This document shows positions 4,345-52,338 of a stretch of DNA of 64,000 nt, one piece after another. The notes beneath the pieces are model-generated. The model was not told where the DNA came from, ran no database searches, and saw only the letters and a list, made by a program, of their open reading frames with translations. Both the position numbers and the translations under genes were made by a program. The DNA is from Lactiplantibacillus xiangfangensis. GTDB lineage: Bacteria; Bacillota; Bacilli; Lactobacillales; Lactobacillaceae. The number at the start of each line of letters is the position of its first letter. Position 1 is the first letter of the stretch. The DNA is taken from NCBI RefSeq assembly GCF_001438845.1, contig NZ_JQCL01000054.1, forward strand, positions 1 to 64,000, given 5' to 3'.

Positions 4345-4716
4345 GGTTGAAAAGTCTAAAATTGCTATTAACACCGTAACAATGGCGATGGTTATTCCTA
4401 AATTATCCACTTCGGCGGACAGAACCGATGTGCTATTGTTATTATTATCGGATAATCGGAGGCTGCCACTGATGGCATCGGTCGTGAAGGTGGTCTTAGG
4501 CCGGTGATTTTTCCGGACTTAGACCACGGACGGTCTGGAACAATTGCGTATTTTGCAACTGTCCCAGCGAGGGGTGAGACCGCTCTTTGGCTTACCCCGG
4601 TCCCACGGCCGCATGTCGTCAGTGGCAACCGGACTAACTCACAAGTAGTTAATTTGTATTAGTTTAAATACTGATACAACAGTAATCAATCCCTAAATTC
4701 AACTTTCAACCTTTAG
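4345..4716 (+). repeat. structured intergenic repeat, copy A
   Basis: One of seven related copies in this window. A short remnant of the left hairpin module (CGGCGGACAGAACC near 4410) is followed by the cloverleaf module at 4457-4633. There an outer stem encloses three hairpins: GTGGTCTTAGGCCGG with CCGGACTTAGACCAC, ACAATTGC with GCAACTGT, and GGGGTGAG with CTTACCCC. The element starts with GGGTTGAAAA and ends with TTTCAACCTTTAG, an imperfect terminal inverted repeat. TTTAGATTT occurs on both sides, a possible target duplication. It lies between the MerR gene and the deo operon terminator. The minus-strand reading frame inside it is a by-product of the palindrome, not a gene. Confidence 0.8.
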
Positions 4717-10012: not shown

Positions 10013-10110
10013 AAGGCCTAAATTAGCCGCTCTGTCAGGCAGAACCGGTGTGCTGTGAGGGATGGCCTCAGCCAAAGTACGTTCTGACTGCGCTAATACG
10101 TCTGTTACGA
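10013..10110 (+). repeat. structured intergenic repeat, fragment C (left module)
   Basis: Only the left hairpin module is present, recognised by TCAGGCAGAACCGGTGTGCTG followed by CCTCAGCCAAAGTACG, closely similar to the start of the copies at 39.1, 39.5 and 52.2 kb. It lies between the deoR stop codon and the deoR terminator. No cloverleaf module follows. Confidence 0.65.
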
Positions 10111-26006: not shown

Positions 26007-26085
26007 GCTTCCGTTTGGACAAATGCCCTAATTTAAACTGCCATTTATGATAAAGTTGATTTAGCGTCTTTTTAGACAACAACTC

Positions 26086-26471
26086 AAGGTTGAAAGCATT
26101 AAATCAGACACAAATCGTTGTCATATCAAAGGTTAACGATAAAAAAATAGGATGCTTCATCGCTTCGTCAGGCAGAATAATCTTACTATTGTTATTTCCA
26201 TCAGATAATCGGAGGACACAACTGATGACATCGGTCGTGAAGGTGGCGTTGGCGCGGCGCTTTTTTTGCCGGGCTTATACCACGGACAGTCCGGGACAGC
26301 TGTCATTCAAAGATCGTTCCGGGCGAGGGACTAGACCGATCCCCAGGCTAGATCCGGTCCCACGACCGATGTCATCAGTTGCGACCGGAATAGCTTATAA
26401 ACAGCTAATTTTGTTGGTCCAGACATTGATGCAACGGTAACTAATCCTTAAATTTAAGTTTCAACCTTTAG
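26086..26471 (+). repeat. structured intergenic repeat, copy B, with flanking direct repeats
   Basis: Left end CTCAAGGTTGAAAG, right end TTTCAACCTTTAG: a terminal inverted repeat. The direct repeat TTTAGACAACAAC borders both ends (from 26071 and again from 26467), the best target-duplication candidate in the family. The left module is cut short after GTCAGGCAGAA. The cloverleaf is at 26210-26389; its stem with GTGGCG and ATACCAC ends and its stem GGACTAG/CTAGATCC are kept, the third hairpin is eroded. It sits between the reductase terminator and the MFS start, in the promoter or leader of the permease gene. Confidence 0.8.
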
Positions 26472-26504
26472 ACAACAACCTATAAAAGATTGGGAGTTTT
26501 TTTC

Positions 26505-29005: not shown

Positions 29006-29040
29006 GTTTTCTCCTTTTACGTCAACACGCCTGAGATTAT

Positions 29041-29377
29041 TATCTAATGAGTTGCTCCGCCAGGTAACCTTGATGTCCTATGAAGGACGGTTTCATCCAA
29101 GGTACGGTCTGAAGCACACCAACACTTCCCGGATCCGTTATTACTATTGTTATAAGCTCAACATTCATTGAATAATCGGAGGTTGGCGCTGATAACATCG
29201 GTCGTGAAGGTGGTGTTAGGGTGGCGCTTTTTTGCCACCCTTACACCACGGACAGTCCGGGACAATTGCGTCCTTGGCAAGTGTTCCGGGCGAGGGGCTA
29301 GACCGCTCCTCAGGCTAGGCCCGGTCCCACGACCGCATGTCATCAGCGACAACCGGACATCGAAATTTCAACCTTTA
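29041..29377 (+). repeat. structured intergenic repeat, copy D
   Basis: The left module is degenerate (GCTCCGCCAGGTAACC... only). The cloverleaf at 29177-29357 is well kept: outer stem GGTTGGCGCTGATAACAT with ATGTCATCAGCGACAACC; hairpin GTGGTGTTAGGGTGGC with GCCACCCTTACACCAC (15 of 16 pairs); and GGGGCTAG with CTAGGCCC. The right end TTTCAACCTTTA stops five bases from the stop codon of the GH1 gene. It lies inside the mannosidase gene cluster, between GH1 and GH125. Confidence 0.8.
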
Positions 29378-29381
29378 ATCA

Positions 29382-36895: not shown

Positions 36896-39031
36896 TTGAA
36901 GATTGATGAACTCGATATTCGCCAAGGAACGGCGAACACGTCCCACCGCTCACATGGCAACTGTCTCCCCTACGTCGGGGTCCCATTTGGCATGAACTAC
37001 TTTAGTGTACAGACGAATGGCGAAGACGGCGCCTGGTTCTTTCAACCAGATGCCCCACGCTATGAAGGAATCCGGCTTACCCATCAGCCTAGTCCTTGGA
37101 TTGGCGACTACTGCCACCTGCTTTTAACGGCCGTGCAGTGGCAAGATCCAACCGAGCATCCCGATTTAGTCGGCAATTATCGCCCCAACGAAGCTACGTT
37201 CAACGCCCACCACTTGGCCCTATTTGACGACCACTTCAACGTGCAAACTGACTTGGTGCCCACCGCTTACGGCGCAGCCATCACGTATGACTTCCAAACG
37301 CCAGAATTGGCTCACCGTGGGATTGCCATTCAATTGCCAGATGACGGTCAATTTGAATTAACAGATACTGGCGTCCGACTCACAGTTTCCGACTATCATG
37401 ACGGCGAAGATCCCAATCTCACCCTTTTTGTGGAACTGACGGTTCCGGGACTTGATTCAGCTCACTCCGGTTACTACGACGCTAACCAACAATGGCACGC
37501 GGCTACGGCTGGTCGGGGCAAATGGTTAACCTTGTTACTAGCCACGACCCAGACACAATTGGACTGTCGTTTGGCGACGTCTTATCTGAACGCGACCCAA
37601 GCGACCCAAAACTTGGCGGTCGTTCAAAAAAACACCGTTCAGCAGCTCCAAGATGAAAGCGCTAACCTGTGGAACACTTACTTAGCCCGTGTCAGTGTCA
37701 AAGATCACCACCCCGCAACGGTCCAAACTTTCTACACCTGCCTGTACCGGCTATTCTTATTTCCACAACGCTTTTACGAGTTGGACGCAAACGGGCAGCC
37801 GCAACATTACGACACGATGGCTAAGCAGATCAAACCCGGCGTCTTGTATACTAATAACGGCTTCTGGGACACGTCCAAGACGATCTACTCACTCTTTTCA
37901 ATCCTGGCGCCCGAACTAATCCCACAATTTTTACGTGGCTTTTTAACGAGTTACCAAGAAACGGGCTTCCTCCCCCGCTGGCTCGCACCGGACGAACGCG
38001 GTATGATGCCTGGCAACCTGGTCGATTCCGTCATTGCGGAAAGCGCCAAAAAAGGGTTGGCACCCGACCTGATGCCCGCACTCTTAGCCGCTATGCAGGA
38101 CAGTGACTCTAAAGCGGCGCGCGGTCAGCGCTACGGGCGTCAAGGTAGTGCGGATTACGACCGCTTGGGCTACGTTCCCGCTGACAAATACCCCGAGAGT
38201 GTCAACTGGACACAAGACTACTCGTACAGTGATTACTGTATCGGCCAAGTCGCCGATACCCTCAATCAGACAGCTGTCGCGACCAAGTATTGGCAACTAT
38301 CTAAGCGTTACCTCAACTTGCTTGATCCACAGACTGGTTTCTTACGACCTAAAAATACCGATGGCCAGTTCAAACCGAACTTCATACCGGACCGTTGGGG
38401 CACCGACTACACCGAGGGTAGCGCTTGGCAAAATAGTTTCAGTGCGTTCCACGACATTCAGGGTCTGATGACCGCAATGGGCGGCAAAGCAAAGCTAGAC
38501 GCCCAATTAACAACGCTCTGTAACACTAAACCGACTTACCACATCGGTGGATATGAAATGGTGATTCACGAAATGGCAGAGTTGGCCGCCATCGATTACG
38601 GGCAACTGGCCATCTCAAATCAACCGAGTTTCCACCTGCCCTACCTTTTCAATTACACGGGGCATCCTGAAAAGACACAGGTCCTCGTCAAACAGTTACG
38701 GAAACTCTTTAACGCTTCAACGACCGGTTTTCCAGGCGATGAAGACAACGGCTCAATGTCCGGCTGGTTCATCTTTGCCTGCCTCGGCTTCTACCCAGTG
38801 TGTCCGGCCGACGCTGAATACGCGCTTGGTATTCCGGCATTCGACCAAATCACACTGCACCTAGCCGACCACGACCTGACCTTAACGACGGCCAACAACC
38901 ATGACCATAACAACTTCGTGCAAAGTACACTGATCGACAATCAACCACTGACCACTTCAACGATTAGTCACGCCCAACTGATGGCCAGCACCAGGATTGC
39001 CACCCGCTTAGGCTTGGTTCCTAACAACTAA
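36896..39031 (+). CDS. GH92 alpha-1,2-mannosidase
   Basis: A 711-aa GH92 enzyme: an N-terminal beta-sandwich (GNCLPYVGVPFGMNYFSVQT), then an (alpha/alpha)6 domain with NNGFWDTSKTIYSLF and the family hallmark EDNGSMSGWFIFACLGFYPVCP. GH92 members are calcium-dependent exo-alpha-mannosidases, mostly alpha-1,2, that trim the arms of high-mannose N-glycans. There is no signal peptide, so it acts inside the cell. The start is TTG four bases after the regulator's stop codon with an AAGGAGGA ribosome binding site. GH92 is unusual in lactobacilli, so horizontal gain is possible, but I did not see composition unlike the neighbours. Confidence 0.94.
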   Translation: MKIDELDIRQGTANTSHRSHGNCLPYVGVPFGMNYFSVQTNGEDGAWFFQPDAPRYEGIRLTHQPSPWIGDYCHLLLTAVQWQDPTEHPDLVGNYRPNEATFNAHHLALFDDHFNVQTDLVPTAYGAAITYDFQTPELAHRGIAIQLPDDGQFELTDTGVRLTVSDYHDGEDPNLTLFVELTVPGLDSAHSGYYDANQQWHAATAGRGKWLTLLLATTQTQLDCRLATSYLNATQATQNLAVVQKNTVQQLQDESANLWNTYLARVSVKDHHPATVQTFYTCLYRLFLFPQRFYELDANGQPQHYDTMAKQIKPGVLYTNNGFWDTSKTIYSLFSILAPELIPQFLRGFLTSYQETGFLPRWLAPDERGMMPGNLVDSVIAESAKKGLAPDLMPALLAAMQDSDSKAARGQRYGRQGSADYDRLGYVPADKYPESVNWTQDYSYSDYCIGQVADTLNQTAVATKYWQLSKRYLNLLDPQTGFLRPKNTDGQFKPNFIPDRWGTDYTEGSAWQNSFSAFHDIQGLMTAMGGKAKLDAQLTTLCNTKPTYHIGGYEMVIHEMAELAAIDYGQLAISNQPSFHLPYLFNYTGHPEKTQVLVKQLRKLFNASTTGFPGDEDNGSMSGWFIFACLGFYPVCPADAEYALGIPAFDQITLHLADHDLTLTTANNHDHNNFVQSTLIDNQPLTTSTISHAQLMASTRIATRLGLVPNN

Positions 39032-39049: not shown

Positions 39050-39444
39050 TTAATGACAAACAGATACGATACTTCATCGCTCCACCGGACAGAACCAGTG
39101 GGCTGTGGGGTCGGCTACAGCCAAAGTGCGGGCTTCCGCCTCGCTTGTAAGCCTCAAAGAACGAGTCTTTCAAGTCGCCCCGCACTGTAACCTGGTTCTG
39201 CCGGCTGCGCTAGGATTGGTTAAAAACAAGCTAGATCAATTTTCATAGAAAGATTACCTTAGCTGGAGGTCACCCATGATGAATCTGCCGCGAAAGTGGC
39301 GTTGACCGGTGGACTTCCCGGTTTACACCACCGACGTCTTGCGATACGTGGGGTGGTGGCTCGCAAGCGACAAGTTTACCAACTTTGTTAGTGTTAACGT
39401 TGGTATCTTGTTAGTATCAGGTTTTTGTGACTTTCAACCTTTAG
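39050..39444 (+). repeat. structured intergenic repeat, copy E (left module complete, cloverleaf with a deletion)
   Basis: The left module has a long closing stem: CCGGACAGAACCAG at 39087 pairs with CTGGTTCTGCCGG near 39210. The right module is the second cloverleaf subtype (GGTCACCCATGATGAATC..., hairpin GTGGCGTTGACCGG with CCGGTTTACACCAC). Compared with copy G about 75 bases, the last hairpin and the right outer arm, are missing between two AAGCGA motifs, a typical deletion at short direct repeats. The right end is TTTCAACCTTTAG. It lies between the GH92 stop codon and its terminator. Confidence 0.8.
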
Positions 39445-39502: not shown

Positions 39503-39517
39503 ATTATTTAACGATGC

Positions 39518-39840
39518 CGCTTCGTCGGGCAGAACCAGTGTGCCATGGGGGGCGGTCCCAGCCACACTGCGGTCTGGAACCTCACTTCAAAGCCGATAGC
39601 CCCTGTCTTTGTTAAATACAAGCTTACTAACAGAATTAGCTAATTCTATTGACTCATCGGAGGTTGTCACTGATAGCATCGGTCGTGCTGGTGGTCTTAG
39701 CCCGGTGATTTTCCGGGTTTAAACCACGGACGGTCCGGGACAATTGTGTCTTTTGCAATTGTCCCGGGCGAGGATTGAGACCGCTTTTCAGGCTCAATCC
39801 GGTCCCACGGCCGCATGCTATCAGTGACAACCGGATTAAT
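39518..39840 (+). repeat. structured intergenic repeat, copy F (best-kept cloverleaf)
   Basis: A shortened left module (GTCGGGCAGAACCAGTGTGCC) is followed by the cloverleaf at 39658-39835. Outer stem: GGTTGTCACTGATAGCAT with its exact complement ATGCTATCAGTGACAACC, 18 perfect pairs. Inside are hairpins GTGGTCTTAGCCCGG / CCGGGTTTAAACCAC, CCGGGACAATTG / CAATTGTCCCGG (12 perfect pairs) and GGATTGAG / CTCAATCC. It starts 15 bases after the terminator and ends about 13 bases from the stop codon of the response-regulator gene. Confidence 0.85.
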
Positions 39841-39852
39841 TTTAACTGAACA

Positions 39853-41325
39853 TTAAGTGGGTTGCCCCGCTGCTTGCTGGCGGTACTCTTTTGGCGAAAC
39901 GTCACAAATCAGCCGGAAATTCTTATAAAAATAGCCACTATTCGTGTAGCCGATTTCTAACGCAATATTGCTAATACTTTCATCCGTACTGAGCAACATT
40001 TGTTTGGCCTGGTCAATCCGATACTGATTCAAATACTTGGAAAAACTTGTCTGGATTTCTTTTTTAAACAACTGGCCTAAATAAACGGGATTTAGATGTA
40101 ACCGGTTCGCCACTTGCGTTAATGACAAATCCTGTGCGTAATCGGCTTTAACAATGGCAATAACCTGCCGGACGTTCTTTGAATAAGTCAGTTGCGGCTT
40201 GGGTTCATAGCGTTGCACCAGTGCGACCACCGTCTGTTCCAACGCCGCAATCGTCGGGGCATTATCAATCAGCGTTAACTGCGCTTCGTAGTCCTGATTG
40301 CTAAACGTCTGGTGGTTACTCAAAATGTTCAAGACTAAAAAGGCAACCTGCCGCGCATAGGACGGTGCAACGTGTTCGTTACTTAATTTTACGAACAATG
40401 CTTGCGTCAACGTCACCATTAACGCTTGATTATTACTACTTAGCGCTCGCTTAAATTTATCCAGGGACACCTTAGGAATCTCCGCCTGCCGTAACCATTC
40501 CGTGCGGGCCGCTCCTGACAGAAACGGCGACCGGCCTTCGTAAAACTGATAAAGTTCCGCTAACGTTTGGGCCTGCTCCAAACTATCGGCGAGGCCCGAT
40601 AGCTGACTGACCCGTTCCCCCACCGTCACAAACGACGCCCCAGTAATGAGTTGCTGGGCCTCTAACTGTTGAATGAACTTCGTTAAGGCCAGGTGCGAGC
40701 CAACAAAGCAAATCATAAATTGATTCTGACTCACGTAATATAAATTCTGCCCTTGTTGCTGACAAGCCTGACTTAACGCATCATAATTCGTGACGTTATT
40801 ACAACAGATCATCGTTAACTTATGTGGATTATTTGCGACACCCGCACTATTTAACAATTGTTCCGTAGCTGCTTCATCAAGTTCCTGCGCCACTAACCGC
40901 TCCGTCTGCATTTCCAAATAGTAGTGTCGCGTTGCGGCTTCCTTCGTTTGCGACTCTAATTGCTCGTGTGCCTTAATTAAAACTTTTTCAAGCTCCTGCG
41001 CATCAACCGGCTTCACCAAATAATCAACGGCACCAAAATGAAGGGCCTGTTTCACGTAATCAAACTCCTGATAGCCTGATAGTACGATGACTAACGGTGC
41101 TTGCGGTAATAATTGCAACTGCTTCATTAGGGCTAATCCCGTCATCTCAGGCATCCGGACGTCGGTAATAATTAAGTCGACCGGTTGCTGTTTAAAAGCT
41201 GCTAACGCCTGCTTGCCGTTACGAACCGTTTGAACAATTTTAAACCCGTTTTTTTCCCAATCAACGATCTTGGCCATACCCTTTAAGATCATGTATTCAT
41301 CATCAACTAACATGACACTATACAT
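39853..41325 (-). CDS. YesN-type response regulator (receiver + AraC DNA-binding domain)
   Basis: A 490-aa protein: an N-terminal receiver domain (VMLVDDEYMILKGM, phosphorylated Asp55 in LIITDVRMPEMTG), a middle linker domain of about 250 residues, and a C-terminal pair of AraC helix-turn-helix motifs (LSLTQVANRLHLNPVYLGQLFKKE and ISNIALEIGYTNSGYFYKNFR). It is the partner of the YesM-like sensor at 43932 and should activate carbohydrate-uptake genes nearby. Ribosome binding site AGGGGGC. Its 150-base leader carries a possible attenuator and a near-consensus cre site. Confidence 0.93.
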   Translation of the reverse strand: MYSVMLVDDEYMILKGMAKIVDWEKNGFKIVQTVRNGKQALAAFKQQPVDLIITDVRMPEMTGLALMKQLQLLPQAPLVIVLSGYQEFDYVKQALHFGAVDYLVKPVDAQELEKVLIKAHEQLESQTKEAATRHYYLEMQTERLVAQELDEAATEQLLNSAGVANNPHKLTMICCNNVTNYDALSQACQQQGQNLYYVSQNQFMICFVGSHLALTKFIQQLEAQQLITGASFVTVGERVSQLSGLADSLEQAQTLAELYQFYEGRSPFLSGAARTEWLRQAEIPKVSLDKFKRALSSNNQALMVTLTQALFVKLSNEHVAPSYARQVAFLVLNILSNHQTFSNQDYEAQLTLIDNAPTIAALEQTVVALVQRYEPKPQLTYSKNVRQVIAIVKADYAQDLSLTQVANRLHLNPVYLGQLFKKEIQTSFSKYLNQYRIDQAKQMLLSTDESISNIALEIGYTNSGYFYKNFRLICDVSPKEYRQQAAGQPT

Positions 41326-51789: not shown

Positions 51790-52338
51790 TAATTCTTATG
51801 ACTGCTTCAAGCCCTGTCTAAACTAGCTATTCCGATTGGTGCTGATGACATGCAGTTACAGAACCGGAATACTTGTCGCTTCCGGCCGCCCATGATTTCA
51901 TCTGCCGTGACGACCGGACTAAGCCTGAGAAACGGTCTTAGTCCTCGCTTGCAAGCCGCAACCCCACGTCTCGCAAGACGTCGGTGGCGTAAACCGGAAG
52001 TCCACCGGTCAACGCCACTTTCGCGGCAGATTCATCATGATCGACCTCCAGCTAAGATGATCTTTCTATGAAAATCGATTTAGCTTGTTTTTAACCAATC
52101 CTAGCGCAGCCGGCAGAATCAGTGGGCAGTGTCGGTCATGTCACCTGGCGTTGTATGCCAGGTAACATGGCGGGTCGTCTTGGAAGACTTGGGCTTTAGG
52201 CTTTCAAGCGAGGCGGAAGCCCGCACCTTGGCTGTAGCCGACCCCACAGCCCACTGATTCTGTCCGGTGGAGCGATGAAGCATCCTATTTTTGCCATTAA
52301 CCTTTGATTGTGCTTATTTTAATGCTTTCAAACTTTAG
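51790..52338 (-). repeat. structured intergenic repeat, copy G (longest copy)
   Basis: Read on the minus strand. It begins CTAAAGTTTGAAAGCATTAAAA (two parts: CTAAAGTTTGAAAG, then CATTAAAA), as copy B does. The left module closes with CAGAATCAGTGGGC and GCCCACTGATTCTG, 14 perfect pairs, where copy E has CAGAACCAG and CTGGTTCTG: a C-G to T-A compensatory change. The right module is the second cloverleaf subtype with hairpins GTGGCGTTGACCGG / CCGGTTTACGCCAC, CGTCT / AGACG and GGACTAAG / CTTAGTCC. It lies in the 3' untranslated region of the GH20 gene, in the same direction. Confidence 0.82.

Follow-up and report, generated by a model that had tools for sequence, protein, structure and literature searches.

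Paired cloverleaf repeats with compensatory base changes in genomes of Lactobacillaceae

Cloverleaf repeats in a 64-kb region of Lactiplantibacillus xiangfangensis

The window analyzed in this work is the whole stretch of 64,000 nucleotides of L. xiangfangensis DNA taken from contig NZ_JQCL01000054.1. Between two convergent ORFs, 36896-39031 (+) and 39853-41325 (-), it carries the repeat copy F and, close upstream, an additional and more diverged unit (39079-39437). The stretch 39518-39840, singled out in an earlier description made from the letters and predicted ORFs (hereafter, the sequence-only reading), proved to be composed of a truncated type II half (39517-39612, strand -, antisense to type I) and a complete type I cloverleaf with an outer stem and three hairpins (39652-39837, strand +). 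The former was recognized by blastn with 26 type II copies and by the covariance model R2 (20.1 bits at 39553-39617), the latter by R2 (165.3 bits) and R1 (207.6 bits), R1 being the model built from 41 copies of this genome and R2 a wider one. The upstream unit comprises one half at 39079-39215 (-; R2 48.8 bits, and blastn) and another at 39258-39437 (+; R2 32.2 bits), and ends with a right terminal inverted repeat (TIR), TTTCAACCTTTAG, at 39432-39444 (-).

Copies A, B and D, reported previously together with F, are equally real, as are the paired arms quoted for them, and the full type I spans, all on the + strand, were located by covariance model at 4451-4635 (A), 26204-26391 (B), and 29171-29359 (D). 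Copy B lies within a whole TIR-bounded unit (26083-26471, +), flanked by ACAACAA at 26076-26082 and 26472-26478, i.e., by a 7-bp target duplication. Near copy A a right TIR is present (4704-4716, -) and no type II half was recognized, and copy D is accompanied by a type II remnant (29052-29113, -; blastn) and a right TIR with one mismatch (29366-29378, -). Thus, within the regions 4441-4640 and 29040-29360 the type II half is lost or reduced to a remnant and type I is intact, which suggests repeated deletion of one half in the L. xiangfangensis genome. A complete divergent pair was also found (51879-52056, -, R2 128.3 bits; 52099-52273, +, R2 94.4 bits), with a right TIR carrying one mismatch at 52326-52338 (-), as well as a type II fragment at 10027-10087 (-; blastn).

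A second subtype with the same plan had been distinguished before, and the common plan was borne out; a correction concerns its strand, which is not that of type I but the opposite one. Read on that strand, type II shares with type I the motif of the third hairpin (GAGG, AGACCG, GGCT, and then CCGTCCC), and for this reason the two types were taken as homologous; models R1 and R2 each match both. In the cross-species set, neighboring matches less than 400 bp apart were divergent in 24 out of 25 cases (the exception being the second and third match in locus L129), weak opposite-strand matches at the same place, such as near-palindromes give, having been set aside from the pair counts. Among the TIR-bounded units of a relative (genome G009), 19 of 21 hold both halves, always divergently, and the two others hold one half (L187) or none (L188). 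Accordingly, type II (-), a spacer, and type I (+) make up the canonical unit, two homologous multi-branch folds of about 180 nt placed back to back, separated by 14 to 359 nt in 23 cross-species pairs.

Covariation and strand bias of the fold

The folding energy of copy F is -111.7 kcal/mol, compared with a mean of -60.7 kcal/mol (sd 4.69) for 200 dinucleotide shuffles, none of which reached it. The layout proposed earlier, one outer stem around three hairpins, was recovered by RNAalifold from 41 copies of the L. xiangfangensis genome aligned with MAFFT by sequence alone (alignment A1, mean column identity 84%). In the consensus of 62 pairs, an outer stem (about 26 bp) is followed by the first hairpin, the short inner stem GGAC/GTCC, and a second and third hairpin. 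The claim that paired arms change together held as well, as 29 of the 62 pairs show double-sided, pair-keeping changes among these 41 copies. Type II, aligned separately (A4, 26 rows; hits shorter than 130 nt, cut by locus ends or containing N were dropped), gave 61 pairs, 24 of them with double-sided changes.

The wider alignment A3 comprises 62 matches (E up to 1e-20; 51 loci outside the window's genus, several being mutual orthologues) with a mean pairwise identity of 61%. Its rows were aligned by the model from the own-genome copies, and so it leans towards this model, and in these terms 93.2% of pair cells were paired (68.9% in the shuffled control and at most 42.8% when the partner was slid), 59 of 62 pairs were changed on both sides (44.5 shuffled, at most 37 slid), and 953 double-change cells were counted (249 shuffled, at most 182 slid). 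Covariation across species, a feature expected of functional structured RNA, is present, and the cloverleaf fold is conserved through compensatory change.

Several stretches stay constant while the stems are rewritten, namely 5' AGCNGGAGG, GTGAAGGTGG, CGAGG, the tip of the third hairpin (AGACC..GGCT), CCGGTCCCAC, and 3' CCGGAGGC. Beyond a conserved GGA/GNA purine loop there is an extra outer helix, GCN/NGC, whose three pairs are formed in 56, 59, and 55 of the 62 copies; as 45.7, 48.2, and 49.0 are expected from column composition, the three pairs are conserved more than covarying. The 3x3 purine loop is nearly fixed in A3, with A.G in 55 and G.A in 54 of the 62 copies. The outer-stem stretch CTGATGA recalls a hammerhead motif, but this resemblance was dismissed, the stretch being paired and variable.

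It had been left open previously whether the fold is formed by RNA or by cruciform DNA. A cruciform folds both strands, so that every G-T of one strand corresponds to an A-C of its complement, and an excess of G-U on one strand is unexpected there. In type I, G-U cells outnumbered A-C cells 160:63, the excess by pair being weak (24 vs. 16), which counts against the explanation preferred below. For type II read on the opposite strand the numbers were 141:18 by cell and 25 vs. 7 by pair, and for the cross-genus copies 152:73 and 34 vs. 7, in an alignment whose fitting to the model likewise counts against that explanation. The G-U excess suggests single-stranded, RNA-like folding, and the strand bias favors RNA or one strand of single-stranded DNA over a double-stranded cruciform. 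Together with the conserved purine internal loops it narrows the earlier choice, and judging by these features of the sequence the selected form of the cloverleaf would be single-stranded, and most likely RNA.

Template-switch correction of imperfect palindromes is known in bacteria, and the long, near-perfect stems described here would suit it. If template switching in quasi-palindromes copied one arm into the other, covariation would be purely mutational, with no selection acting on the fold. Such a process could mimic matched changes, but not conserved mismatched loops: it would erase the mismatches of the purine loop, which persist in nearly all copies, and would yield neither a G-U excess nor slow loops. 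We thus regard this explanation as very improbable.

Mobility, distribution, and relation to known elements

In the window's genus the units are bounded by terminal repeats CTAAAGGTTGAAAG. The L. xiangfangensis genome contains 57 such sites with at most one mismatch, compared with one for the reversed control pattern, and G009 at least 132, compared with none. Perfect direct repeats of 7 or 8 bp were present at the ends of nine of 15 TIR-bounded units in the former, whereas the 21 units of G009 (201-556 bp, the young ones mostly 500-556 bp; mean identity of 85.5% among twenty of them) have perfect 7-9 bp target duplications in 17 cases and a one-base difference in the other four. At one G009 site (L170) the joined flanks align unbroken to other copies of an unrelated repeat (86%, query 175-347, junction at 230), and therefore the nested unit must have jumped into another repeat. 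The earlier suggestion that the element spreads as a unit is in agreement with these TIRs and target duplications. No such TIRs were recognized in the flanks of the pairs examined from other genera. In locus L169, two TIR-bounded units, each with a 9-bp target duplication, have their outer ends 3.7 kb apart. The repeat in the L170 flanks, a further dispersed one about 175 bp long and without relation to the cloverleaf, is present many times over in several genomes of this genus (e.g., G009:C7:178614-178789; query 171-348).

The one young unit checked for coding capacity (L170) contains no ORF longer than 52 aa, hence no transposase. Among the candidate movers, IS256 (none in G009 or G014) and ISL3 (none in G009) were rejected. 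Genome G014 has two PF01609 genes, one of which is situated inside a 1460-bp stretch (L191 1179-2638) starting with CTAAAGGTTGCAAG and ending with CTTTCAACCTTTGG, with no visible target duplication. This gene is split between two frames, each of which matches NF049925, an IS4 model of NCBIfam (transpos_IS4_4; 254.4 and 158.6 bits, with a whole-protein cut-off of 250). DNA similar to the L191 element was found in 38 records of named plasmids: the exact 14-mer CTAAAGGTTGAAAG opens the match in two plasmids of Lacticaseibacillus paracasei (L244, L246), its complement lies downstream of the match in a plasmid of Lactiplantibacillus plantarum (L243), and two other stretches gave a one-mismatch form upstream (L247) and no pair of this kind (L245). 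In the gene table no transposase is annotated under the match in L243, L244, and L246.

The cloverleaf units thus share their 13-14 bp ends with IS4-family insertion sequences, although they are devoid of a transposase and, reciprocally, no cloverleaf was detected in the L191 locus with R2. Because the same ends flank IS4-family genes in G014 and on plasmids, an IS4-type element is the likely mover, and its transposase likely moves the units in trans. An intact IS4-family gene with both ends was not seen among these loci (L191 is broken, and the plasmids L243, L244, and L246 have one exact end each); G009 gave no PF01609, PF00872, or PF01610 match, and the single PF01609 match of the L. xiangfangensis genome is without such ends.

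All copy numbers given here are lower bounds, as the best 125 candidates per genome of the genus and the best eight per genome of the family were scored. At least 102 copies are present in the 3.0-Mb L. xiangfangensis genome (R1; 125 candidates scored, 102 matched), where blastn with copy F alone marks at least 40 places. Within the genus, matches were found in 13 of 21 genomes, with at least 125 in one of them (R1); the remaining eight are free of the family, which is therefore dispensable, a point counting against the preferred explanation. A covariance-model search of Lactobacillaceae, proposed by the sequence-only reading, revealed the fold in 54 of 301 genomes and 10 of 40 genera (best eight candidates per genome scored), the matches being full length among those listed. 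The search of 295 genomes of the order gave six carriers, all of Lactobacillaceae, and that of 378 genomes of the class (R2) yielded, besides the own genome, a single weak match. The latter (L193, G307:C75:39358-39525; 29 bits) is full length, comes from another family of the order, and may be due to chance or represent a distant relative. An exact 25-mer recurred in named genomes in 36 stretches, five of them from Lactiplantibacillus nangangensis and 31 from one uncultured Lactobacillus MAG. The cloverleaf had no match on plasmids, nor in phages searched with copy F only; a conserved pattern of 40 positions had no exact counterpart in viral contigs, and their protein scan with a neighboring gene found nothing.

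The sequence-only reading did not recognize the repeat as a named RNA, and no Rfam 15 family reached its gathering threshold in the window; a looser threshold applied to the repeats yielded sub-threshold matches only. Of these, mir-15 (23.8 bits, gathering 57.3) and others were taken as chance. So was Ref68, or Lacto-3 RNA (RF02840), whose name points to lactic acid bacteria and which matched the type II strand: its score was 18.4 bits against a gathering threshold of 44, at the truncated copy only, and it was not listed in 19 other loci.

Structured bacterial MITEs, such as Correia/NEMIS, ERIC, RUP, and CIR, are presented in the available part of PMC2229807 as long stem-loops of 100-200 bp, CIR having two arms. 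Compared with that account, the cloverleaf units are likewise short, non-coding, intergenic, and highly repeated, with TIRs, target duplication, and a stable RNA fold, but differ in being built of two homologous multi-branch folds with conserved loops, in their occurrence in ten genera, and in the compensatory changes of resident copies. MRSC-65-2, a "mobile/repeat sequence candidate" from diverse phyla (available part of PMC11109978), resembles them as a structured, covarying motif with dozens of copies per genome; it is one long stem, and the term "lactobacill" does not occur in the main text of that paper as available. No description of the family was found in the available portions of open-licence PubMed Central papers (including PMC11109978, PMC2229807, and PMC2267715). 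Structured interspersed mobile repeats are already known, and what we did not find described in those sources or in Rfam 15 is the paired multi-branch fold, the conserved loops, the spread over ten genera, and compensation in place. The family amounts to about a hundred structured elements of about 180 nt per genome, outside Rfam, in relatives of food bacteria.

Resident copies, gene context, and possible role

One site is common to four species of genus g25 (L123, L140, L142, and L144) and lies between convergent genes; a pair from another genus (L125) adjoins the same gene (blastn). At this site the strong half has accumulated 0.062 and the weak half 0.043 substitutions per site, compared with 0.161 in the spacer between them, which corresponds to a 2.6-fold and a 3.8-fold stronger conservation of the halves. 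The flanking intergenic regions reach 0.142 (left) and 0.284 (right), and the flanking genes 0.036 and 0.064, so that at this one site the resident copies evolve at the speed of the neighboring genes. No compensatory pair was seen at this slow site, which counts against the preferred explanation. At a g21 site, also examined in four species, the strong half shows 0.178 substitutions per site versus 0.170 and 0.139 in an indel-free, presumably coding stretch downstream, with 0.259 and 0.529 in the nearer flanks. It revealed 12 compensatory double-changed pairs and six pairs broken in some copy (L120, L122, L156, and L164; the cloverleaf of L118, lacking a blastn alignment to the others, was left out of the count). 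Orthology was judged from shared flanks; a second site (L153, L155), for which a single flank was aligned, has 12 compensatory pairs between orthologues, and two further sites have four and three. Across the sites with compensatory pairs, one to six pairs are broken in some copy, which also counts against the preferred explanation.

As the orthologous cloverleaves are about as slow as genes and show compensatory changes, the resident copies look selected. Gene conversion between copies could make evolution look slow, but it could not mimic orthologues whose two arms differ in a matched way. The matched mutations in old copies suggest that the elements may have a function instead of being mere junk. 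Selection on resident copies, together with the divergent pair, the TIR- and target-duplication-bounded element, and the ten genera, had not been foreseen by the sequence-only reading.

These observations bear on the possibility that the family is a purely selfish structured MITE, in which the cloverleaves would be needed for transposition (binding of transposase or a host factor to the folded single strand) and be useless to the host. The TIRs shared with IS4-family genes, the 7-9 bp target duplications, the high copy number, the patchy distribution, and the size and near-regular completeness of the young G009 units are what such an element would display; on the other hand, the conservation of the halves at the fixed g25 site, the compensatory change at four other orthologous sites, and the lack of recognizable TIRs around the pairs examined from other genera do not fit it. 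We consider it somewhat unlikely. A divergent pair of small RNA genes with one common regulatory spacer was also taken into account, as the halves diverge with their 5' ends facing and many type I copies have a GATAAT-like stretch right before the 5' end. Nonetheless, some spacers measure as little as 14-15 nt, the spacer is unconserved at the orthologous g25 site, and no promoter was matched at the 5' ends of the two window units scanned (which counts against the preferred explanation too), and this arrangement is hence improbable.

The gene context was determined with a simple ORF picker for 36 of the at least 102 L. xiangfangensis copies and for 50 copies from other genera. Among the former, 17 lie between convergent genes, 13 between tandem genes, four between divergent genes, and two at locus ends; for the latter the respective numbers are 15, 23, two, and 10, and a cross-genus recount with approximate positions (n = 53) gave 18, 25, one, and nine at the edge. 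In raw counts, divergent gene pairs account for 4/34 own and 2/40 cross-genus copies. ORFs longer than 600 nt hold none of the 36 own and none of the 50 cross-genus copies. With respect to tandem genes, type I is oriented in the same direction in three and opposite in 10 own cases, and in 10 and 13 cross-genus cases, respectively; with so inconsistent a direction there is no simple sense 3'-UTR rule for type I alone, which again counts against the preferred explanation, as does the absence of terminators inside the two window units scanned.

REPs are short (20-40 nt) single palindromes or hairpins. The available part of PMC2817692 treats REP/BIME sequences, with their RAYT transposases, as extragenic repeats, and the cloverleaf family resembles them in being extragenic and structured, with alternating orientation and more than 100 copies per genome. 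By analogy, it might be a DNA element, in single-stranded or cruciform form, to which gyrase or some other nucleoid protein would bind between converging genes, which would suit the inverted pairs, their intergenic position, and the frequent convergent context (17/34 own, 15/40 cross-genus). The units differ from REP/BIME in consisting of two multi-branch folds of about 180 nt each, and the one-strand G-U excess is unexpected for a cruciform. A REP/RAYT partner was rejected, given that Y1_Tnp (RAYT-like) is absent in six of 13 carrier genomes and present in six of eight non-carriers. A role of this kind appears unlikely.

The explanation that we prefer, tentatively and with less than even confidence, is that of a Lactobacillaceae family of bipartite structured intergenic elements, which in this genus became transposon cargo and which would have a two-way role at 3' ends. 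Such a role is proposed because the halves point outward and few units lie between divergent genes. Whichever side it came from, a transcript would pass the antisense half and end with the sense cloverleaf, and the unit might then serve 3' ends independently of direction, by protecting them in the mRNA or by controlling read-through, probably with the participation of a protein reading the conserved loops. This would account for the paired halves, for the scarcity of units at divergent gene pairs, and for the absent direction preference. The units would be mobilized in trans by an IS4-family transposase, proliferation and retention being two separate steps. A further-reaching version, in our opinion rather doubtful, is that the family represents an unrecognized, family-wide functional structured RNA composed of a back-to-back pair of ancient homologous folds, kept intergenic and away from divergent promoters and re-amplified to a copy number of about a hundred as IS4-type cargo; a new RNA class would be at hand if transcription and function were shown. 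Hallmarks of mobility (terminal repeats, target duplications, and a candidate IS4-type mover) are combined here with hallmarks of function (compensatory changes in resident copies, which at one site evolve as slowly as the flanking genes). It can therefore be tested directly, in harmless and tractable species, whether bacterial MITEs are able to carry a structured RNA that is useful.

Two sub-threshold Rfam matches were also observed beside repeat copies in other loci, a T-box leader in L018 (458-692, strand -; 87.4 bits, below the gathering threshold of 93) and a PyrR site in L009 (1571-1663, strand +; 53.1 bits, just below the gathering threshold of 54).
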